Part shown: positions 11,901 to 39,570 of the stretch, one piece after another
Layout of the letters: each line of letters starts with the position of its first letter
Numbering within the stretch: position 1 is the stretch's first letter
From: a virus
Direction: 5' to 3' (one strand)
Length of the DNA stretch: 42,232 nt
Virus record (IMG/VR): IMGVR_UViG_3300025889_000244
Coordinates: 1-42,232 of that record
Notes under the pieces: model-generated
What the model was told of the DNA's origin: nothing
Databases searched by the model: none
What the model saw: the letters and a program-made list of their open reading frames with translations, nothing else
Translations under genes and position numbers: made by a program

Positions 11901-13849
11901 TCAATTGGATGCGCTGGACCAGATTTGACTCCGGGTGCAACAAGTTGACGCATCCCTGACTCAATCATGTTTCGAGTCATGTAACCGCCTGTTATCAGGC
12001 TGGTTGCTTTAAACAGTTTACTTACAATGAAATCTGTTGCCGTAACCCAACCCTGAGCATCTCCATAAACTTCAGGCATTTCGGCTGCCTTAGCAAAAAT
12101 AACCGCATACCTTGACGACGCTCGACGCACATTTCGAGGATCAGGAAAATGAGTGGCAAACTTCTTCGCCTCAGAATACAGCTCGGCTGTATCGCCTTTC
12201 ATCGCTAAACCAGAAACTTCTTGGCCGTTAATCACCGCAGTCAAATCGTCATACGTTTTAACGCCAGGACCGCCAGGGCCATCAATCACGTCACCAAACA
12301 AACCGGACTCTTTGAAACCGTCCATGTCTTCGTTGTAACGGGCAAACATTTTTTGCAGGAACTCTTTGTCCTGTTTGCGAAACACACCCTGCCTTGTAGC
12401 CATCGCGTCAATAACAGTGTCCGTCAACTGGTCAATCGCCTGCTTGCTTAGTTCACGATTACCAGAAGACAACCCCCTCGAAAGTTGACGCAGCACAGCG
12501 TCACGTTGCTCCGGTGCAACTTTCACCAGTTTCATGTAATCACGGGCGTTCTTAACTGTTTGTGTCAACAGCCGGCCAGCAACATTCGGGTTATCAAAAT
12601 TGTCGATATCAATAATCAGTTCACGGCCAGGAACAGTTGCCCCGAGTCGTTCGTAACGGAATTTTTCTGCGATTCCACGGCGAACATCTGATGCTGCGCC
12701 GACACGAATATCTCGCACATCGGTCAAACCACGACGAACACCTAAACCGCCTTCGTACTGTCTAATTTGCCCTAGTTCGTCAACAGTTGACGACGCTTCA
12801 TCCAAATTGTTTGACAACAAGCGACGCATCCCGTTAATGCGGTCGTTGTCTGGCCGAAAATCGGTGGTGCCTTCAATAAAATTGTTGTTCAGAATGTCGT
12901 CCCACAGCGAATTGTCGGCTTTAGGAAGAATGTCCATCGCTTCTTCAACTGTGCGTACCCGTGCAAGACGTTCCACAACAGCAGTGCCGGAACGAGTGTT
13001 TAGCCAACTGTTTGCTTTAGCGGTGTTGACAAACGGTGACGCAAAGTTTGTTAAACCAGAAAGTTTCCGCATACCGGCAACATCGGCGGCAGCGGTGGCA
13101 CCTTTGCTTGCAACTTTTGCTCCAGGGAGCGACGGCACAGCAATAGCAGCAGCAGCATCAATAATGCCTGACATATAGTTGTACGGCTTAGAACCAGGCT
13201 CAAAAAAAATTCCGGCAGAACCCTTACCAAACGTCAACGCTTCACCGTCATACATTCCACGGTACGCTTTCACCGCCTGTTGCTGGCGTTCTAACGCTTT
13301 CTCACCAATCCAGAAACCGTTACCCGTTTCCTCACCCGACAACATCGCACCGAAATCGGTTGACGCAAACCAGCCATCAGTCCAAGATTCTGTTGTCGGA
13401 GGTGTATACCATTCAGACGGGTCGCGAGTCTGGCCGGGGCCAGGACCACCGGGGCCACCTAAACCAGTGAACGCCCGTGTACCAAAGTTCGTCACCAACT
13501 GCGGCACCAGTTCTAAACCTGCGAACGTCCAACGTGAAGCCGTTTTCAACCATTCCGGCCACGGACCTTTATCTTCAGTTTCCTGCGCTTTCGTCTGATA
13601 TTCAACTTCGGTAGCAGAATCAATCATCTGTAACGCAGATTGCTGATCGAGTGTGCCATCACGGATTCCTTCAGCGGCAGACAAAATCAGATCAGGGTCA
13701 CCGTACCCTGCGGTGCGACTCAGAAAATCAACGTTTTTTGCGAACTCTAAACCGGCATTACGTTCGTCAACGTAGCGACGGTTGGACCAACTTTGTAACT
13801 CCCGATACAGGTTTTCTTCGTCGTCGATAGAAAGATCATTGACCCCCAC
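8936..13849 (-). CDS. Very large internal virion / DNA-ejection protein candidate, 1637 aa
   Basis: The largest gene in the window. It is mostly helical and charged, with two Ala/Gly-rich hydrophobic stretches: around residue 233 (IIDAAAAIAVPSLPG) and around 1173-1210 (TALLFASTMAGG, then FAVGALGGLGAGAG). The second could insert in or cross a membrane. A Gly/Pro motif GLGGPGGPGPG lies near residue 135. I saw no lysozyme, transglycosylase or RNA polymerase motif. Size, position between portal and scaffold, and membrane-active segments fit the gp16-like ejection proteins of podoviruses, but no homology is shown. Confidence 0.55.
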   Translation of the reverse strand: MGVNDLSIDDEENLYRELQSWSNRRYVDERNAGLEFAKNVDFLSRTAGYGDPDLILSAAEGIRDGTLDQQSALQMIDSATEVEYQTKAQETEDKGPWPEWLKTASRWTFAGLELVPQLVTNFGTRAFTGLGGPGGPGPGQTRDPSEWYTPPTTESWTDGWFASTDFGAMLSGEETGNGFWIGEKALERQQQAVKAYRGMYDGEALTFGKGSAGIFFEPGSKPYNYMSGIIDAAAAIAVPSLPGAKVASKGATAAADVAGMRKLSGLTNFASPFVNTAKANSWLNTRSGTAVVERLARVRTVEEAMDILPKADNSLWDDILNNNFIEGTTDFRPDNDRINGMRRLLSNNLDEASSTVDELGQIRQYEGGLGVRRGLTDVRDIRVGAASDVRRGIAEKFRYERLGATVPGRELIIDIDNFDNPNVAGRLLTQTVKNARDYMKLVKVAPEQRDAVLRQLSRGLSSGNRELSKQAIDQLTDTVIDAMATRQGVFRKQDKEFLQKMFARYNEDMDGFKESGLFGDVIDGPGGPGVKTYDDLTAVINGQEVSGLAMKGDTAELYSEAKKFATHFPDPRNVRRASSRYAVIFAKAAEMPEVYGDAQGWVTATDFIVSKLFKATSLITGGYMTRNMIESGMRQLVAPGVKSGPAHPIEWVRAMSRRTFKGTIDGEEYAPYAARIAGDSMAEFDEATGVAALQAGLDPIEAEKWSYRNGQYSLASRGVNNQDYVRGVATEIRLLAGDQVARWAAAGLDVDEIVDLLKTTPEGQRYLARLNERWRGRQLTDAQGNSFRGDVVFSRTDVNGQIEFFDQNLRKFVSGVADRVERKTGGYTQLKKIIENAEIDGEFVNTAGATVKAFAGGSPGRRALNEFERFDYTEEFFDEIAYLMGQANTTLPQNVKYTKPLRLEAGAKGANVADRTVRHFFSHVFGKKEGFLNRSPVHRQYYYAKLEDLVDADQLSREAFQTAYDNILEASVKQAEDKVRLLKSSLKEPDKYTGKYEWNGAMVRKPEMEARLRRAERQLSDAQKRVQRGAQGEAVIVDPKKFDAWASRYVGSERMWNKIKQGRVSASVEGITAEQASFVAKAFALDQTQKVFFNAAERSNFTDIMRIAVPFGAAWKEAQTFNLKQIALNPNRLRKVQRPIRVAQDADPDNDGKGFFYEDPVTGNMTFNVPFGETALLFASTMAGGTLLQTATRGRGGVFAVGALGGLGAGAGIQQRVGQDLGDVGVDFTAPVQSLSQTLQVFPGFGPAVQYPAGALLRDKPQFKDVLAMVAPFGGYENPLDIVTPAWAEKFTQAIFADPKTDRWFAELYIDAGRALMATGEYDQTNPQDMERLMEKASGAAKGLLLLRSLGQFTGPYRPEPELTIPTDYEGTVTVGDMEILVENNVRTSVLAATWRQMQEDDYDNATENFMRAFGPDVLWFLPGLTETEVKGLAATDVFGEWEYENRDVTEQYPEVYGYFAPEGGEFDFQTYLRQLRTGERTRRSSIPELKAEAEAIVGRALYMDAIRMAEPVIDDGEREFLRRYREDLKKQYPGYGTLSIDINEQPGIMLQLEQMANDERMTGNPTAEALRVYFNQRNIAEQASINRDGFSSEPLSRSTAADMRQYLRSIANDLMVRYPEFGRVYSRVLFDEIDER

Positions 13850-16021: not shown

Positions 16022-16114
16022 TTATCCACAGCAGTGATGCTTCAATCCGCAGTGTGGGCATCGCCAACGGGTCGCTACAGGATCAAATTCTTTTCCACAA
16101 TTTTCGCAAGGCAT
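16022..16114 (-). CDS. Zinc-ribbon mini-protein, 30 aa, between terminase and portal
   Basis: Sequence MPCENCGKEFDPVATRWRCP followed by HCGLKHHCCG. Two CxxC/CxxHC knuckles make a complete zinc ribbon. The ATG overlaps the terminase stop (TAATG) and no separate ribosome-binding site is evident, so translation is coupled to terminase. I recall similar tiny proteins at this place in actinophages. Role unknown; nucleic-acid binding or a packaging accessory is possible. Confidence 0.7.
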   Translation of the reverse strand: MPCENCGKEFDPVATRWRCPHCGLKHHCCG

Positions 16115-18453: not shown

Positions 18454-19121
18454 GCGACGGCGGGGCAACAAAGTCTTACCGTGCGATCAGGCATGAAATA
18501 GTTCGAGCGAGACAAAGTTCTGGAAGTGACGACACCAGACACCCACACGAAAAATCTGCGATGATTCGCTCAGCGTTAAACGGCAGCAGTGGGCTACGCA
18601 CGTTAGAACTTTTTGCAGGAACAGGTAACTGCACTAAAAATTTTGCAGAATACGGAACTGTTATAGCTAACGAAAAAGTTGGGAAAATCTATAAGCAGCT
18701 CGTAGCCGAAACAGAACACAACCCTGAAATTACATGCGTCAGAAAAGACAGCTTCGTTTATTTTCACGAACTGATTTCTCAAAAACAAACGTTCGATGTC
18801 ATCGACATAGACCCCTACGGGTTCCCAAACAGATTTTTCCCAGATATTTATTTACTGATCGACAACGGACATCTTTTCGTCACGATGCCAAAACCTTACG
18901 TCAACATTTTGAATGGGATAACCAGAGCGCACCTAATTAGCTACTACGGGGAACACAACCCGACTGAACAAGAAATTGTAGAGCGCATGGCGTTATGGGG
19001 TCTGTGCCACTGGCGGAAAGTGACATTGATAGAAAGACAAGATTTGAAATCGGTGTGGAGATTCTGTTTCAAAGTAGAAAAAGTTAAGGCTACAGAATAC
19101 ACGGGTGTGAGAAACAGATGA
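18450..19121 (+). CDS. SAM-dependent methyltransferase with DPYG motif (Trm1-like)
   Basis: A 223-aa class I methyltransferase. Motif I is LELFAGTGNCT (52-62, SAM binding), and the catalytic-loop equivalent is DVIDIDPYGFPNRFF (116-130). The D-P-Y/F-G form is characteristic of the Trm1 tRNA guanine-N2 methyltransferase group rather than the DPPY of DNA adenine enzymes. It lacks the rest of Trm1 and is short. The substrate is unknown: modified DNA, tRNA or a nucleotide are open. It overlaps both neighbours by four bases (ATGA), within an operon that also holds DpdA. Confidence 0.7.
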   Translation: MSDGGATKSYRAIRHEIVRARQSSGSDDTRHPHEKSAMIRSALNGSSGLRTLELFAGTGNCTKNFAEYGTVIANEKVGKIYKQLVAETEHNPEITCVRKDSFVYFHELISQKQTFDVIDIDPYGFPNRFFPDIYLLIDNGHLFVTMPKPYVNILNGITRAHLISYYGEHNPTEQEIVERMALWGLCHWRKVTLIERQDLKSVWRFCFKVEKVKATEYTGVRNR

Positions 19122-19882
19122 GCGCAGAAGCAGTCGGCTACGTTTACCGGCACTCCCCATACAACGGAGCAACATTCGCCATACATCTCGCAATCGCAGA
19201 CACCGTATCCGACCAAAACCACAACCAGTTCTGGATGTCAACGGCGAAACTCGCAACAAAAACCCGAACCACCAGAAGAACCGTACAAAAAGCCATCGAC
19301 CAGCTCTGCGAAGACTTCTTCATCGTACAAACACGGCCAGCAACCCAACACTACCCGGCAACCTACAAATTTTTGATGCCGGCTGTGGATATCTTCTACG
19401 AAACACACTCAGGGGCGCAATCTGTGCACCCAGAGGCGCAATCCACGACAACCAGGGGCGCAACCAGTACGCCCAAACCCAATAGAACCCAAAAACCCAA
19501 ACACTCTTGCTCACCTGACGGTGAAGCGTTCGAGCAATGGTGGAAGCTCTACCCCAAAAAACTGAACAAAGAGAACGCACGCAAAGCATGGAAAGCCCAC
19601 ACCAAAAAAACAAAACCAGAAACCATCATCGAAGCAACCCGCAAACAACTCGCCACCCCAAACACCGCACTCAACACAGAACCCCAATACATCCCCTACC
19701 CCGCTTCTTGGCTGAACTCCGGTGGCTACAACAACGAATACGAAACCAGCAGCGAACCATCACGCCAATACGACCAACCAGCACGACCTGAATGTTCAAC
19801 ATGCGACTCCACCGGGTACATCAGCACAATGGACGAAAAAGGCCGCTGGCACGCTACCCAATGCAAGGAATGTAACCAATGA
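19118..19882 (+). CDS. Winged-helix replication initiation / replisome organiser protein
   Basis: A 254-aa protein. Residues 1-85 form a winged helix (FWMSTAKLATKTRTTRRTVQKAIDQL is the recognition region). A polar Thr/Pro/Lys linker follows (95-130), then a DnaD-like FEQWWKLYPKKLNKENARKAWKAH segment (about 139-165). It ends in a CSTCDSTGY...CKECNQ zinc knuckle. This layout is typical of actinophage replication proteins that open an origin and load helicase. The nearby DnaA boxes and clamp homologue agree. It may bind within its own gene or at 21.15 kb. Confidence 0.7.
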   Translation: MSAEAVGYVYRHSPYNGATFAIHLAIADTVSDQNHNQFWMSTAKLATKTRTTRRTVQKAIDQLCEDFFIVQTRPATQHYPATYKFLMPAVDIFYETHSGAQSVHPEAQSTTTRGATSTPKPNRTQKPKHSCSPDGEAFEQWWKLYPKKLNKENARKAWKAHTKKTKPETIIEATRKQLATPNTALNTEPQYIPYPASWLNSGGYNNEYETSSEPSRQYDQPARPECSTCDSTGYISTMDEKGRWHATQCKECNQ

Positions 19883-20777: not shown

Positions 20778-20786
20778 TGATACAAT
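20778..20786 (+). promoter_or_regulatory. Extended -10 promoter in front of a candidate small RNA
   Basis: TGATACAAT: TGn extension plus TACAAT. Expected transcription start is near 20793, two bases before the first of three hairpins. No open reading frame with a good ribosome-binding site follows closely. Confidence 0.5.
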
Positions 20787-20792
20787 CTAACC

Positions 20793-20865
20793 ACCGGCCC
20801 ACGCAGGCCGCTCAGGTCGTACCCTCGTTGCACAGGGCGGGACGCAACCCACGGAAACGTGGTCG
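20793..20865 (+). ncRNA. Candidate structured RNA with three hairpins
   Basis: Hairpin 1: CGGCC/GGCCG with a 6-base loop (20795-20810). Hairpin 2: GTTGC/GCAAC (20827-20848). Hairpin 3: CCACG, GAAA tetraloop, CGTGG (20849-20862), immediately stacked on hairpin 2. They follow the extended -10 at the right distance for a transcript start. The 3' end is uncertain; a T5 run occurs at about 20899-20903. It matches no RNA family I know. It could be a free small RNA or a leader. Confidence 0.45.
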
Positions 20866-21154
20866 ATCTCTCATGCCCTCAAACAACCTCATAAGAACTT
20901 TTTGCGGACAGGAAGACGAGAGAAGCACGAACCGGCGACGGCGAAAACAAAACACTAAACGTGAAGCTCCACGACAACGAGCGGGAATCAGGAACAGCGG
21001 CACCCTGATGGGGGACATAAACCTCTCTAAATCAACCCCAACACGGGCACGTCCCCGTCAACAACCATCACAACCAAAGATAACAAGAAAACCACACATC
21101 TCAAACACAGATAATAACTGTACACGGGGTGGGCGGCCTCGGCATACCCCCGGG
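20866..21154. other. Non-coding stretch between candidate RNA and origin cluster
   Basis: A frame of about 107 codons from the ATG at 20873 exists, but it is Arg/Pro/Thr-rich, has no ribosome-binding site, and runs through the DnaA boxes. I do not believe it codes. By eye, strand composition flips here: genes to the left on this strand are A/C-rich, genes to the right G/T-rich. Confidence 0.5.
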
Positions 21155-21239
21155 TTGTCCACAGGTTATCCACAGGCAGGGGGCTACTTTACATAACATG
21201 CATTATGGGCGGGTTGATAGTGATAGATTCTGTGGATAA
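21155..21239. other. Origin-like cluster 1: three DnaA boxes
   Basis: TTGTCCACA (21155-21163) and consensus TTATCCACA (21166-21174) lie 11 bases apart. ACTTTACATAAC (21186-21197) follows, then TGTGGATAA, a DnaA box on the other strand (21231-21239). The same order and the same 11-base spacing recur at 24040-24125. Together with a clamp gene and a replication protein, this is a good replication-origin candidate using host DnaA. Confidence 0.65.
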
Positions 21240-21401
21240 CTTCCCCCCGGTGGGGGTGTAAAGCTCTCCGGCTGCCAGGGATAGGGTACCTCTTCGGCGG
21301 GCTGCTGCCAGGGTCACGCCTTGCCAGTGTTGCTGGTGGTGGTGGTGATAGTGGTCCTTGATAGTGACTATGTGTAGATAGTGACGCGCGGCGCGATAGT
21401 G
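21216..21401 (+). repeat. GATAGTG repeat group, left set (five copies)
   Basis: GATAGTG at 21216, 21347, 21360, 21377 and 21395. The same heptamer recurs at 22458, 22471, 22489, 22840, 22854, 22871, 23970, 23983 and 24000, mostly between genes and always in the same orientation. It could be an iteron, a protein-binding site or a promoter element. The rest of 21240-21514 holds nothing else I can name. Confidence 0.6.
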
Positions 21402-21514
21402 ATTTTTGGGTGTTGCACCTGGTGCGCAAGGTGTTGGTGAAATTGGGGCTTGACTTGTGGCGTGTTGGTGCTAGTGTTGTGGGTGTTCGGTCGTGTGGTG
21501 CGGTCGGCGTAAAC

Positions 21515-21527
21515 CTAGATAGGGGAA
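21515..21527 (+). promoter_or_regulatory. Conserved leader element before the clamp gene
   Basis: CTAGATAGGGGAA, containing an AGGGGA ribosome-binding site 8 bases before the ATG. The identical 13 bases precede the ArdA gene at 22969-22981, so the two genes share a translation (or transcription start) signal. Confidence 0.6.
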
Positions 21528-21531
21528 TGAA

Positions 21532-22248
21532 ATGGAAGATAAAAGCTTCTCGATTGTGTTTGATCGGCGGGCGGTTGATTGGTTGCGGGCGGTGGTTTCG
21601 GTCACTGCTAAGGATCGGCAGCCGATTGACTGTGTGCATGTTTCTGCGGGTGGTTCGTTGTGGTCTCCGGTGTTGGGTGACTTTGACGGGGTGTCGTTGA
21701 CTGCTACCGATAGTTACCGGCTGCTTACTGTGGCGTTGCCGTTGGACGTTGCGGGGCTTGTCGAGGTTTCGGGCTATTGCGATTCGTTGGTGTTGCCGTT
21801 GCGCGATGTGAAACTTCCGGCGGGTGGTCGTGTGGCTATCTGTTCCGGCGTTGGGCAATATGACCAGGTTCCCGGCCAGGTCACTGTCGAGATTGAAGAT
21901 AGGCAAGGCCGTGAGACTGTGCAAACGTTGCGTTATGACCCGGCGGCAAACTTTCCGAACTGGCGGCAGCTGATTCCGTCGCTTGAGAGCTTTGACGGGT
22001 TTCCGGTTACTGCTCTTAACGGCGAGCTCGTGGGGCCTTTGTTTACGGCTATGGCTAAGGCCGGCGGCGGTGTCGATTCTCCGATTCGGTTTGTCGGTGG
22101 CGTTGACGATATGAAACCGGTCCGTTTCGATTGTGTTGGGGATTTCTTTGCGGCGTCTGCTATTGCTATGCCGGTGCGGGTCCCTGGTGGCGTGTTGGGT
22201 CACCTGGAACGTTTTGAGAGTGTCGAACGTGTGGCGGTGTCGTCATGA
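21532..22248 (+). CDS. dnaN: Sliding-clamp (DnaN/beta-clamp) homologue, short form
   Basis: A 238-aa protein. LTATDSYRLL (56-65) matches the ATDxxRL signature of beta-clamp domains, and NFPNWRQLIP (140-149) matches the FPDYxxVIP domain-linking motif. Bacterial clamps have three domains (about 370 aa); this has room for two, so it would have to trimerise to close a ring, or act as a competitor of the host clamp. It lies next to DnaA boxes, as dnaN does at bacterial origins. Codon style is G/T-rich, unlike dpdA just upstream. Confidence 0.7.
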   Translation: MEDKSFSIVFDRRAVDWLRAVVSVTAKDRQPIDCVHVSAGGSLWSPVLGDFDGVSLTATDSYRLLTVALPLDVAGLVEVSGYCDSLVLPLRDVKLPAGGRVAICSGVGQYDQVPGQVTVEIEDRQGRETVQTLRYDPAANFPNWRQLIPSLESFDGFPVTALNGELVGPLFTAMAKAGGGVDSPIRFVGGVDDMKPVRFDCVGDFFAASAIAMPVRVPGGVLGHLERFESVERVAVSS

Positions 22249-22472
22249 TTCGGGCTAATCAGATAGCGCGCAACGTTACTGCGGTTGTGTTGGCGTTTTG
22301 TGGGTTGCCGATTCTGTGGCAGCTTGTTGGCATGGTGCGCGATTCGTTCAATGTTTCGGCCTCTCATGGGGTAGCGGCGTTGGTCGCGTTGTTGGCGGTG
22401 GCGTTGTTGTGGCCGGTGTCCGTTGTTGTGTTGTGGCAGATTATGGGCGAGGGGGCAGATAGTGAACGGTGA
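22245..22472 (+). CDS. Small membrane protein, 75 aa, two transmembrane segments
   Basis: Hydrophobic segments at about residues 12-30 (VTAVVLAFCGLPILWQLVG) and 44-66 (ALVALLAVALLWPVSVVVLW). Short charged ends, C-terminus EGADSER. It overlaps the clamp gene by ATGA. Function unknown. A membrane protein inside a replication/anti-restriction island could act in superinfection exclusion, but that is a guess. Confidence 0.6.
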   Translation: MIRANQIARNVTAVVLAFCGLPILWQLVGMVRDSFNVSASHGVAALVALLAVALLWPVSVVVLWQIMGEGADSER

Positions 22473-22854
22473 TAGTGGTACGCGCGTCGATAGTGAGATA
22501 TCGGCGGCTTGGAAGTGGTACGGGGACGGCGGCCACGCGTGGCTATCTGTACCTGGTGAACACCTGGCGCGCGTCGGTGCGCTTGATTCCATTTCTACGT
22601 TTTCCTATGTTGAACCGGATACCGGGCGCGTCTATTTAGAGGAAGATTGCGACGTCTACGAATTTCTGCAACATTTAGCGGACTTTTGCGGGGTTGGCGG
22701 CAGCTTGCGCGAAATTGGTGACCATTTTTTGCGGTCTGTTCCGTTCGTTGATTGCGGTAGTCGTGCGGCGTTGCGGGACTTCCCTAGCTTCACGCCGGGT
22801 TGGGTTCGTGCGTTGCGTGGTTCGGCTGCGTGGGCGGGTGATAGTGACGGATAG
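22462..22854 (+). CDS. Hypothetical protein, 130 aa
   Basis: The start was set at the GTG (22462) with GAGGGGG upstream; this GTG lies within a GATAGTG repeat. Visible: WKWYGDGGHAWLSVPGEHLA, FSYVEPDTGRVYLEEDCDVY and FLQHLADF. The GHAWL...YLEEDCD pattern reminds me of small proteins encoded on actinobacterial plasmids and phages, function unknown. It overlaps the 75-aa membrane gene by 11 bases and ends just before the next repeat pair. Confidence 0.6.
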   Translation: MNGDSGTRVDSEISAAWKWYGDGGHAWLSVPGEHLARVGALDSISTFSYVEPDTGRVYLEEDCDVYEFLQHLADFCGVGGSLREIGDHFLRSVPFVDCGSRAALRDFPSFTPGWVRALRGSAAWAGDSDG

Positions 22855-22880
22855 ATAGTGAACGCGCGTCGATAGTGGCG
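22853..22880 (+). repeat. 28-bp repeat, copy 1
   Basis: Two GATAGTG heptamers separated by AACGCGCGTC. The full 28 bases recur exactly at 23982-24009, and a close variant lies at 22472-22497. The GCGCGT between the heptamers makes the unit look like a composite binding site. Confidence 0.75.
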
Positions 22881-22889
22881 TGTGTGGTA

Positions 22890-22941
22890 GCTGTTCGGCC
22901 TTGTTGGTGGCCTTTGGTGGGTTCGATTCCTGCGGGCAGCA
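22890..22941 (+). tRNA. tRNA-like fragment lacking a D arm (not a functional tRNA)
   Basis: GCTGTTC (22890-22896) pairs along seven bases with GGGCAGC (22934-22940). Between them are a GGCC/GGCC stem-loop, and a T arm whose loop is TTCGATT with a five-pair stem, giving the classic GGTTCGATTCC signature. Only 52 nt, with no D arm and no proper anticodon loop. It may be a degenerate tRNA, the tRNA 3' end copied into an attachment site, or chance. A 33-codon frame (22875-22976) also crosses it. Confidence 0.3.
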
Positions 22942-22968
22942 CTCCGGCAGTGTGGTGCTGTTGGTCAA

Positions 22969-22981
22969 CTAGATAGGGGAA
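22969..22981 (+). promoter_or_regulatory. Conserved leader element before the ArdA gene
   Basis: Identical 13 bases to 21515-21527; supplies the AGGGGA ribosome-binding site for the ArdA homologue. Confidence 0.6.
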
Positions 22982-22984
22982 ATT

Positions 22985-23551
22985 ATGACAGTGACAGAAA
23001 TAGACTCGGGCGCGCGCGCGTGGGTCGGTTGTTTAGGTTGCTACAACGGCGGGCGGTTGCGCGGTTGGTGGTTAGATTGTGACGGTATCGCGGAACTACC
23101 GGACCGTTGTAGCGTGTGCGGCTCGGATGAATGGTGGGTGATGGATCACGAACTAGGCAATGGGTTCGGCGAAATGTCTCCGGCGGAATTTGTTGAGATT
23201 GTGGAACGTTGGCAGCAGCTTGACGAATTGGACGCATCCGGCAGATATTCGGCACCATTGGCGGCGGTGTTGGCGTATTGGGATAATGCCGGGTGGCAGT
23301 ACGCGCCGAAAGACTCTCACGACATCTTCCGGGGTCCGTCTGACTGTTATGTGTTTACTTGTAATCAGAATGACGACACTCATTTGGGCTATGCGTGGGC
23401 AGATTTTGAGGAAGAAACCGGTGGGTGGCGTGAAGATTCTCTCCCGGACTGGGTACGCATAGATTGGGAGAGCGTAGGGCGCGACATTCGGCACACCATG
23501 AACGTGTGCGAGATTCGTGGCGGCGGTCTGGCGGTGTTCTCTCATGGGTGA
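22985..23551 (+). CDS. ardA: ArdA-family antirestriction protein with CxxC insert
   Basis: A 188-aa acidic protein. The N-terminal WVGCLGCYNGGRLRGWWLD (13-31) matches the YxACLxxYNxGxLxGxW signature of ArdA, a DNA mimic that blocks type I restriction enzymes. EEWxxxD-like text (DEWWVMDHEL) follows, then a helical acidic middle and a C-terminal IDWESVGRDI typical of ArdA ends. An unusual CSVC pair (C42, C45) sits where ArdA normally has none, and with C16/C19 could bind zinc. Strong negative charge fits DNA mimicry. Confidence 0.7.
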   Translation: MTVTEIDSGARAWVGCLGCYNGGRLRGWWLDCDGIAELPDRCSVCGSDEWWVMDHELGNGFGEMSPAEFVEIVERWQQLDELDASGRYSAPLAAVLAYWDNAGWQYAPKDSHDIFRGPSDCYVFTCNQNDDTHLGYAWADFEEETGGWREDSLPDWVRIDWESVGRDIRHTMNVCEIRGGGLAVFSHG

Positions 23552-23738
23552 AACATTGACAGTACAAGAACACGGTGAGGAGCTTTGCGCCGAACATGGG
23601 CATGAGATCCCTACCGGCTTAGAATTTGGCTATTCGTGGTTAGGTGGTAACTATCGGGCCATCTGTACCGGGTGCGGCATGGTGTTTCTGTTGTGGGAGT
23701 GCGTGTGCGAGCTCGTTTGTCGTAGGTGCGAACAATGA
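23544..23738 (+). CDS. Cys-rich small zinc-binding protein, 64 aa
   Basis: Begins MGETLTVQEHGEELCAEHGH; then CTGCGMVF and a C-terminal WECVCELVCRRCEQ. At least six Cys and two His could hold two zinc ions. It overlaps the ArdA gene by 8 bases and the next gene by ATGA. Function unknown. Confidence 0.6.
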   Translation: MGETLTVQEHGEELCAEHGHEIPTGLEFGYSWLGGNYRAICTGCGMVFLLWECVCELVCRRCEQ

Positions 23739-23857
23739 CGGCGGGCGCGTTTGTTGTGCTTGTTGAACCTCGCCCGGTGTCGTTGTGGTCTGTGACCGGG
23801 TGGCCCGTTGTGCTGCCTATCGTTGGGGCGTTGTTGTTGGCGTACTGGTTGCGTTAG
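23735..23857 (+). CDS. Single-pass membrane peptide, 40 aa
   Basis: A polar N-terminus, then one hydrophobic helix WPVVLPIVGALLLAYWLR at the end. It overlaps the preceding gene as ATGA, and a hairpin follows its stop. Last gene of the plus-strand block; role unknown. Confidence 0.5.
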   Translation: MTAGAFVVLVEPRPVSLWSVTGWPVVLPIVGALLLAYWLR

Positions 23858-23869
23858 TCAAGGCGTAGG

Positions 23870-23903
23870 GCCGCGTCGCTGCTTTGGTGGTGGCGCGGCT
23901 TTT
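23870..23903 (+). terminator. Candidate terminator of the plus-strand block
   Basis: GCCGCG and CGCGGC pair across an 18-base loop and are followed directly by TTTT. It begins 12 bases after the last plus-strand stop codon. The loop is long, so strength is uncertain. Confidence 0.45.
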
Positions 23904-23919
23904 GCGCGTGTGGGGTTCG

Positions 23920-23958
23920 ACCAGGACGCGAGCACCAGGACGCGAGCACCAGGACGCG
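23920..23958. repeat. 14-bp tandem repeat, nearly three copies
   Basis: ACCAGGACGCGAGC twice in full and an 11-base third copy. Non-coding, at the left end of the convergent region. Confidence 0.75.
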
Positions 23959-23981
23959 CAGCCGGTTGTGATAGTGGTGCG

Positions 23982-24009
23982 AGATAGTGAACGCGCGTCG
24001 ATAGTGGCG
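23982..24009 (+). repeat. 28-bp repeat, copy 2
   Basis: Exact copy of 22853-22880 (two GATAGTG heptamers around AACGCGCGTC), with a further GATAGTG just upstream at 23970. It lies 30 bases before origin-like cluster 2. Confidence 0.75.
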
Positions 24010-24039
24010 GCCAGTGTTGGAGCTGCCGAAACCGGCTAG

Positions 24040-24125
24040 TTATCCACAAGTTATCCACAAGAAATCAACTTTACATAACTATTATTCGCGAGCTGCCAGC
24101 CGGCCTGTGGATATCCTGTGGATAA
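24040..24125. other. Origin-like cluster 2: four DnaA boxes
   Basis: TTATCCACA at 24040 and 24051 (11 bases apart), ACTTTACATAAC at 24068-24079, then on the other strand TGTGGATAT at 24106 and TGTGGATAA at 24117. It has the same element order as 21155-21239. It sits in the only convergent intergenic gap of the genome. Confidence 0.65.
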
Positions 24126-24134
24126 AGTGCGAAA

Positions 24135-24165
24135 TCGAACGTATGTTCGACGAACGTATGTTCTG
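24135..24165. promoter_or_regulatory. Two abutting LexA (SOS) boxes
   Basis: TCGAACGTATGTTCGA (24135-24150) is a perfect actinobacterial SOS box, TCGAAC-N4-GTTCGA. The second, CGAACGTATGTTC, follows at 24151-24163 with one-helical-turn-and-a-half spacing. Host LexA would bind both. The nearest genes on both sides point towards this gap, so the site is not upstream of any clear gene. Confidence 0.7.
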
Positions 24166-24177
24166 TTTTTGGGCGTT

Positions 24178-24218
24178 CGCCACGCTCAATACCGCCACGC
24201 TCAATACCGCCACGCTCA
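24178..24218. repeat. 15-bp tandem repeat, nearly three copies
   Basis: CGCCACGCTCAATAC twice in full plus an 11-base third copy that overlaps the stop codon of the 51-aa gene. Non-coding apart from that overlap. Confidence 0.75.
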
Positions 24219-38338: not shown

Positions 38339-39414
38339 CAGGTCACATCGTATCCTGCTGCTACTAGGTCTGCTTTTTCTTCTGCGGTCACAAAGTTTTC
38401 GTGTGAACCGAAATAGATTTTGACGACGGCGTTGTCGTTGCGTGGATCTATTGAGGTGTAGGTTCCGTCGCTGAGTTTGTAGACGTTGAGTCGGCGTTCG
38501 CCGGGGGTGAGCCGTGAGAACAGCCGGTTTGCTGGGGTTGCGGAATGGTAGTTTGCCCACGGGAAGTCTGCTTCGACGGGTGGCCGGAAGATGAAGCTCT
38601 TTGTCCAGGTGGCTGGGATGTCTGCTCCGTTGCCTGTGTTGCTGGCTGTCCGTGGGGCGATGTGTAGTCCGGTTGCTGTGCCGTCTGATGTGTTTGTTCC
38701 GGTGGCTGTGCGTGGGGCGATGTGTAGTCCGCTGGCGGTTTGGGTGCTGTCACCTGCACCTGTGGCGGTGCGAAGCACGATACGCAGACCGTTAGCGGTT
38801 GAGGTTCCTGCCCCTGTCGCGCTGCCTGTAGCGAATGTGGTGCGTACCTGTACAACAGCAGAGGTTCCGTCACCTTCGCCTGTTGCTGTTCGGGGTGCGA
38901 TGTGGAGTCCGGTTGCGCTGTCTCCGGTGGTTGCGCCTCCGCTGCCGTATGCGGTGCGTAATAGTTTGTGCAGGATGGCGTTGTTGGATGTGCCTGTTCC
39001 GTTGCCTGTGGCGGTGCGTGGCGCGATGTGGAGGCCGGTTGTGATGGAGGTTCCTGTGCCGTCGCTGGTTGCTGTGCGTGGCGCGACGTGTAAACCTGTT
39101 GCTGTTGAGGTGCCGGTGCCGTCACCTGTGGCGGTGCGGAACGCGATGCGGACACCTATGGTTGTGGAGCTGCCGGTGCCGGTGCCGGTTGCTGTGGTGT
39201 CGAGTGTGCGTGACCCGTTGTAGCCGGTGGTGTTTGTTGAATAGGTGAGGGCTGTGGATGCGTAGCCTTGTGCGACGTTGGCGGTGGTGCCTTCGTAGGT
39301 GAGTTGTTCCCGGTCGTATAGGTAGTCGGGGTTGTCGTAGTCTTGTTCTACGGTGTTTCCGGCGTACGTTATGTGTTCTTCGTAGTCGGTGGAGGATTCG
39401 TACAGCCGACTCAT
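38338..39414 (-). CDS. Repeat-rich tail fibre protein, 358 aa (complete copy)
   Basis: N-terminus MSRLYESSTDYEEHITYAGN. From about residue 70 to 260 there are roughly ten imperfect copies of a 19-20-residue unit built on GLHIAPRTATGDGTGTS. This pattern is used in minor tail proteins of actinophages. The C-terminal domain (about 270-358) holds the YKLSDGTY and ADLVAAGYD motifs shared with the 95-aa gene. Likely a long fibre shaft with a terminal knob. Confidence 0.75.
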   Translation of the reverse strand: MSRLYESSTDYEEHITYAGNTVEQDYDNPDYLYDREQLTYEGTTANVAQGYASTALTYSTNTTGYNGSRTLDTTATGTGTGSSTTIGVRIAFRTATGDGTGTSTATGLHVAPRTATSDGTGTSITTGLHIAPRTATGNGTGTSNNAILHKLLRTAYGSGGATTGDSATGLHIAPRTATGEGDGTSAVVQVRTTFATGSATGAGTSTANGLRIVLRTATGAGDSTQTASGLHIAPRTATGTNTSDGTATGLHIAPRTASNTGNGADIPATWTKSFIFRPPVEADFPWANYHSATPANRLFSRLTPGERRLNVYKLSDGTYTSIDPRNDNAVVKIYFGSHENFVTAEEKADLVAAGYDVT

Positions 39415-39417
39415 CGG

Positions 39418-39570
39418 TTACACTTCTTCGGGTTTTTCGGTGCCTACCTGTTGCTCAATCCACGCTGACCATTCTTCGGTAGACATGACAGTAACGGTGT
39501 CGTCAACCTGTACGTTGACCGTGCCGTCAGGGTGTAGTTCTTCTAATTCTTGTCTAGTCCACTCAGCCAT
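39418..39570 (-). CDS. Small fibre-partner protein, 50 aa (allele 2, third module)
   Basis: Starts MAEWTRQELEELHPDGTVNV and ends GTEKPEEV. It overlaps the fibre gene 39563-40240 by 8 bases; in allele 1 the two are 5 bases apart. Same VDDTVTVMS and EEWSAWIEQQ core as the other copies. Confidence 0.75.
   Translation of the reverse strand: MAEWTRQELEELHPDGTVNVQVDDTVTVMSTEEWSAWIEQQVGTEKPEEV

Follow-up and report, generated by a model that had tools for sequence, protein, structure and literature searches.

What do two matching clusters of DnaA boxes do on either side of the early genes of a phage? The window analysed here, the whole stretch of a virus record of 42,232 bases, carries such clusters, C1 and C2, separated by ∼2.9 kb, with C2 at the far (3′) end of the early genes (Table 1). 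A sequence-only reading had suggested either that recombination at the origin let in a plasmid-type replicon or mobile cargo and left the origin in two copies, or that this is a dual-origin phage. From comparison with related sequences we favour, with moderate confidence, an arrangement in which C1 would be an origin and early-control module and C2 a matched auxiliary site, with one factor bridging both.

Two box clusters in a probably lytic phage

The record encodes a terminase, portal, major capsid protein, tail proteins and an endolysin, along with two WhiB regulators, an SSB, an annealing protein, a RecE-like exonuclease, a RusA-like resolvase and DpdA. Among the window proteins scanned, none was recognised as an integrase, repressor, polymerase or helicase, and many early ORFs are orphans. 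The WhiB genes point to actinobacterial hosts. The kin of the window are metagenomic contigs (given here by L numbers); no known phage relative was found by DNA, and cultured phages match only in TerL, at ∼26–32% identity. A TerL search for prophages likewise found no relative among ∼85,000 species genomes. Since neither a repressor nor an integrase was recognised and species genomes hold no TerL relative, we see no sign of lysogeny; the family is probably actinobacterial and lytic. Paralogous units of ∼840 bases are repeated near both contig ends (744–2077 and 39966–41926), and positions 1–300 are 94% identical to 39242–39541.

The exact box TTATCCACA occurs seven times in the window against 0.23 expected, and five of the seven copies lie inside the clusters. 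The cluster score is 7, where the best of 300 dinucleotide shuffles reached 2, and C1 aligns with C2 at a score of 60 against a background maximum of 37. Two near-consensus DnaA-box clusters thus flank a gene block, the layout of a bipartite origin. The shared order that had been described for them holds for the positions, the tandem boxes and the common 12-mer, but not for the inverted boxes, of which C1 has one and C2 two (one mismatched). Second box and 12-mer are 11 nt apart in C1, 8 nt apart in C2. Elsewhere in the window, the short terminase–portal gap has an exact DnaA box and a near one, at 16022 and 16091. Contig L023, which apart from an ArdA gene matched none of the window's genes, has three exact DnaA boxes at 12584–12635, the first two 11 bases apart, ∼2 kb after that gene. 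A search of the literature on DnaA boxes in phages gave no useful match.

Table 1. Positions of features at and around the two box clusters in the window
Feature	Position	Strand	Remarks
O-like/DnaD-like replication initiator (RepO)	19118..19882	+	phrog_270, 5.7e-32
Conserved structured RNA, candidate new family	20781..21035	+	Kept in relatives
Block A, AAAACCACACATC..CACAGATAATA	21088..21116	+	Kept in relatives
Block B, TCGGCATACCCCCGGG	21139..21154	+	Kept in relatives
C1	21155..21239	.	DnaA boxes: TTGTCCACA at 21155+, TTATCCACA at 21166+ and 21231-
12-mer ACTTTACATAAC	21186-21197 (C1 copy); 24068-24079 (C2 copy)		Sole identical 12-mer common to C1 and C2
Block C, palindrome CATAACATGCATTATG	21192..21207	.	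CATAA-N6-TTATG at the same place in L114, L116, L148, L158, L160, L089
Block D, TGTAAAG	21257..21263	+	AGTAAAG in relatives, by eye
Block E, CGCCTT	21317..21322	+	CGCCTA in most kin; close to skew switch
GATAGTGR array 1	21347..21402	+	Four copies; further copy at 21216
Putative early promoter, TTGACT-N16-TAGTGT	21450..21477	+	Weak; from sequence only, not flagged by scan
DnaN-like clamp (probable domains II–III)	21532..22248	+	L191 homologue; motifs TATDSYRL, FPNWRQLIP, MPVRVP
Small membrane-like protein	22245..22472	+	ORF; no confident family
GATAGTGR array 2	22458..22496	+	
ORF, no assigned function	22462..22854	+	30–48% homologues in several relatives
GATAGTGR array 3	22840..22878	+	
ArdA antirestriction protein	22985..23551	+	PF07275, 9.3e-12 (Pfam); same slot in L042, L059
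Cys-rich small protein	23544..23738	+	47–52% homologues in L191, L118, L119; no confident family
Small membrane-like ORF	23735..23857	+	ORF
GATAGTGR array 4	23970..24007	+	Three GATAGTG ahead of C2
C2	24040..24125	.	TTATCCACA at 24040+, 24051+ and 24117-; ATATCCACA at 24106-
Two tandem LexA/SOS-like palindromes	24136..24164	.	Jointly a 12-bp hairpin, then TGTTTTT (terminator-like); like pair in L050/L049
CACGCTCAATAC, two copies	24181..24207	+	15-bp tandem repeat, third copy degenerate; like motif at operon junctions of L142, L034, L044

A conserved frame and a skew switch at C1

Relatives of C1 were found by nhmmer with positions 20780–21300 of the window as the query, which gave ∼40 distinct related contigs. 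The elements recur in a fixed order, namely the structured RNA, block A, block B (TCGGCATACCCCCGGTT), a variable box cassette, and then AGTAAAG and CGCCTA. Many of these contigs also carry the palindrome CATAA-N6-TTATG followed by GGGCGG between the cassette and AGTAAAG; in the window the conserved palindrome beside the C1 boxes is AT-rich. The RNA covaries strongly across 15 relatives, with nine pairs changed on both sides and 98.7% of cells paired, and none of 500 shuffles reached its covariation score. It has no Rfam match up to E = 1, and its core was absent from the species genomes searched. A recurring 5′ leader, CGGCGTGGGGTCG.., stands ahead of the early operons of L190, L191, L034, L118 and L159 and is possibly an RNA element.

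In the 25 records tested, which have enough flank, the + strand shows a keto/amino flip at the C1 orthologue, A/C-rich before it and G/T-rich after it, and in several the changepoint lies no more than 15 bases from CGCCTA; the exceptions are L086, where the change is weak, and L101, where it is mainly right-sided. The flip in the window is not a coding-strand effect, because the genes on either side of C1 all lie on the + strand. The conserved frame and the sharp flip together point to C1 as a probable replication origin, and the earlier description of it as origin-like is supported by the relatives. The start of the box cassette lies no more than a few hundred bases from the end of about 15 of the ∼40 contigs, which reach it from one side or the other, and two contigs near-identical to the window break off before the C1 junction and pick up again after it, which suggests that strain-level variation at this junction may lie behind the contig ends.

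No skew change was seen at C2 in the window. The idea of a dual-origin phage, in which C1 and C2 both fire, draws on the presence of the same boxes and a common 12-mer in both clusters, but gains nothing from the skew. C2 also falls outside the conserved frame, having no block A, no right arm of the palindrome and no block E, and most relatives have C1 only, so we regard two firing origins as highly improbable.

The genes between the clusters

The sequence-only reading had listed clamp, ArdA, membrane and zinc genes between the clusters. ArdA is confirmed by its Pfam match (Table 1). The clamp call fares less well: its 41%-identical L191 homologue matches the DnaN models TIGR00663 (3.5e-4) and PF02767 (2.4e-3) weakly, below curated cut-offs, but the window protein itself has no match to DnaN models, and its AlphaFold model (pLDDT 28.7) is unusable. 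Clamp relatives were found only in L191/L197 and in the distant contig L198, the last with no like clusters seen. Membrane-like and Cys-rich ORFs do exist, although neither kind falls in a confident family. A T-arm-like GGTTCGATTCC lies upstream of ArdA at ∼22925–22960, where no tRNA was called.

Could these genes have come in together, on a 2.8-kb plasmid-type replicon or mobile island whose entry at the origin left it duplicated? The paired clusters do flank the genes, and ArdA is often plasmid-borne. However, none of the 16 relatives that span the region has an empty site. From CGCCTA to the WhiB operon all 16 hold genes over 3.0–6.6 kb, mostly different ones, and the 2.9 kb of the window is the shortest such interval. 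A plasmid search gave no DNA-level match, no plasmid initiator or relaxase was recognised, ArdA and clamp homologues occupy the same slot in kin, and in L191 and L190 the second cluster matches the box type of its own origin even though the genes are different. The inserted island was rejected on the absent empty site and the absent plasmid match, and we give such an entry almost no credence. Judged from these comparisons, the genes between the clusters appear to be the usual early operon of the family, which varies greatly in content.

Exchange of box types and the proposed control of the early operon

At the C1 position, the cassette differs from lineage to lineage. DnaA boxes are found there in the window, L129, L134 and L159 (five of them in L129/L134; placed further downstream in L159), the LexA-type CGAAC-N4-GTTCG in L050, L049, L046, L131, L042, L118 and L119, TGTNCGNACA in L114, L116 and L191, and TTGCA-N3-TGCAA in L153, L158 and L148. 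RepO was considered as the binder of the variable boxes but is an unlikely one, since knowing its N-terminal type does not tell which boxes a genome carries: L121 and L190 have a RepO N-terminus 79–83% like that of the window, yet no DnaA boxes, and L118 and L119 differ in RepO while having their boxes in common. Because the type of initiator fails to predict the type of box, a factor other than RepO probably binds the boxes; in this phage it is, judged from the exact boxes, probably host DnaA.

Second clusters follow the same exchange. The earlier claim that matching clusters bracket genes is confirmed in the window, and the layout recurs with other boxes in L191, which is distant from it (28% in RepO and 36–41% in the clamp; 83% in DpdA and TerL). 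L191 carries eight TGTNCGNACA against 0.33 expected, three of them at C1 and another four ∼2.8 kb on, in a second cluster; the clusters surround its clamp and Cys-rich genes, and GTTAGTG repeats adjoin both. In L190, TGCATAA (six against 0.88 expected) and an adjoining GATAGTGG occur at C1, at the inter-operon junction and at the 3′ junction, a pairing less clear-cut than that of L191 because the boxes resemble half-sites of the conserved palindrome. L034 has elements similar to those of L190 at its inter-operon and 3′ junctions. No second cluster was found in L050, L046, L042, L114, L116 or L119, all of which have full coverage, and C2 would thus be dispensable in the family, most fully covered relatives being without a second cluster. 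By sequence, the box pair is optional, and where it is present its type appears to be that of the genome's own origin.

Relatives swap box types, sometimes at both ends together, which argues for an exchangeable control system rather than a mobile element. Tentatively, we propose an origin built as a constant chassis that takes plug-in box cassettes for various host regulators (DnaA, LexA and others). The cassettes would be exchanged among strains and, in genomes with two sites, would change together at the two ends of the early operon; replication or early genes would thereby be coupled in each lineage to a different host-cell state. In phage GIL01, a LexA-type regulator acts on phage genes (PMC6182141); the likeness lies in the LexA-type boxes at C1 in several relatives, whereas here the LexA type is one of several interchangeable box types at a probable origin, and the window has no recognised LexA homologue.

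In this phage, C1 would serve as origin and as start of the early operon, its conserved frame holding an exchangeable cassette for a DNA-binding factor, host DnaA. C2 would be a second, lineage-specific cassette of these boxes, placed at that operon's 3′ boundary. DnaA at C1 may help to open the origin or gate early transcription, the phage RepO would load the host helicase, and DnaA at C2 may cooperate with C1 over 2.9 kb by bridging and looping, making C2 an auxiliary regulatory site. The nearest model is the bipartite oriC of Bacillus subtilis and Helicobacter pylori, in which DnaA joins two box clusters and loops out the gene between them (PMC5043019). The likeness is that two DnaA-box clusters flank a gene block; unlike those origins, the present clusters are phage-borne, flank a clamp/ArdA operon rather than dnaA and lie 2.9 kb apart, relatives of the phage replace DnaA boxes with other types, and looping is our proposal.

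A different role for the boxes would be that of a decoy, titrating host DnaA and restraining host replication in the manner of datA, with their position unimportant. Several near-consensus boxes in a small genome would suit this, as would the fact that no host-replication inhibitor was recognised. We think it improbable: seven boxes are few against a chromosome, their positions are fixed beside a conserved palindrome, and relatives have non-DnaA boxes at the same place. The oriR of plasmid/phage P1 is an iteron origin that works with host DnaA and has DnaA boxes on either side; unlike the present clusters, these boxes lie within one compact origin, with RepA as initiator. A phage origin usually depends on one phage initiator; in this family the type of initiator does not go with the type of box, and the boxes found at one position vary by lineage, including exact DnaA and LexA-type boxes. 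If our reading is true, the series of lineages would be suited to asking which host signals a lytic phage heeds, and the phage would offer a system for asking whether two distant DnaA clusters cooperate on it.

The main rival is a purely transcriptional role, in which the clusters are transcription-boundary elements and not origin parts, host or phage regulators bound at the start, the junctions and the end of the early operon gate or block its transcription, and GWTAGTGR is stoperator-like. GWTAGTGR occurs 16 times in the window against 3.7 expected and eight times in L191 against 0.74. It is asymmetric, and all early-region copies follow the direction of transcription in the window, L190, L191, L142 and L034; the copies are intergenic in the manner of stoperators, with some window copies overlapping gene ends. 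Asymmetric intergenic repeats oriented with transcription are the mark of the operators and stoperators of mycobacteriophage L5 and its like (PMC9283540). GWTAGTGR shares the asymmetry and the orientation, but the window is without a recognised repressor or integrase, the sites are nearly all in the early region, and the DnaA boxes are separate from them. Modules of this kind do lie at operon starts, at inter-operon junctions (L190, L191) and at 3′ ends (window, L190, L034), and each element around C2 (GATAGTG, the LexA-like palindromes and CACGCTCAATAC) has its like at the operon boundaries of other lineages. We nonetheless judge a boundary role alone somewhat unlikely, given that no repressor or integrase was recognised in the window, that the species genomes searched gave no TerL relative, and that the flip in skew at C1 speaks for replication. 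On the 3′ side of the early region, near WhiB2/g24216, contigs L157, L184, L194 and L196 have at least three CGCGCTCAATAC-like repeats.
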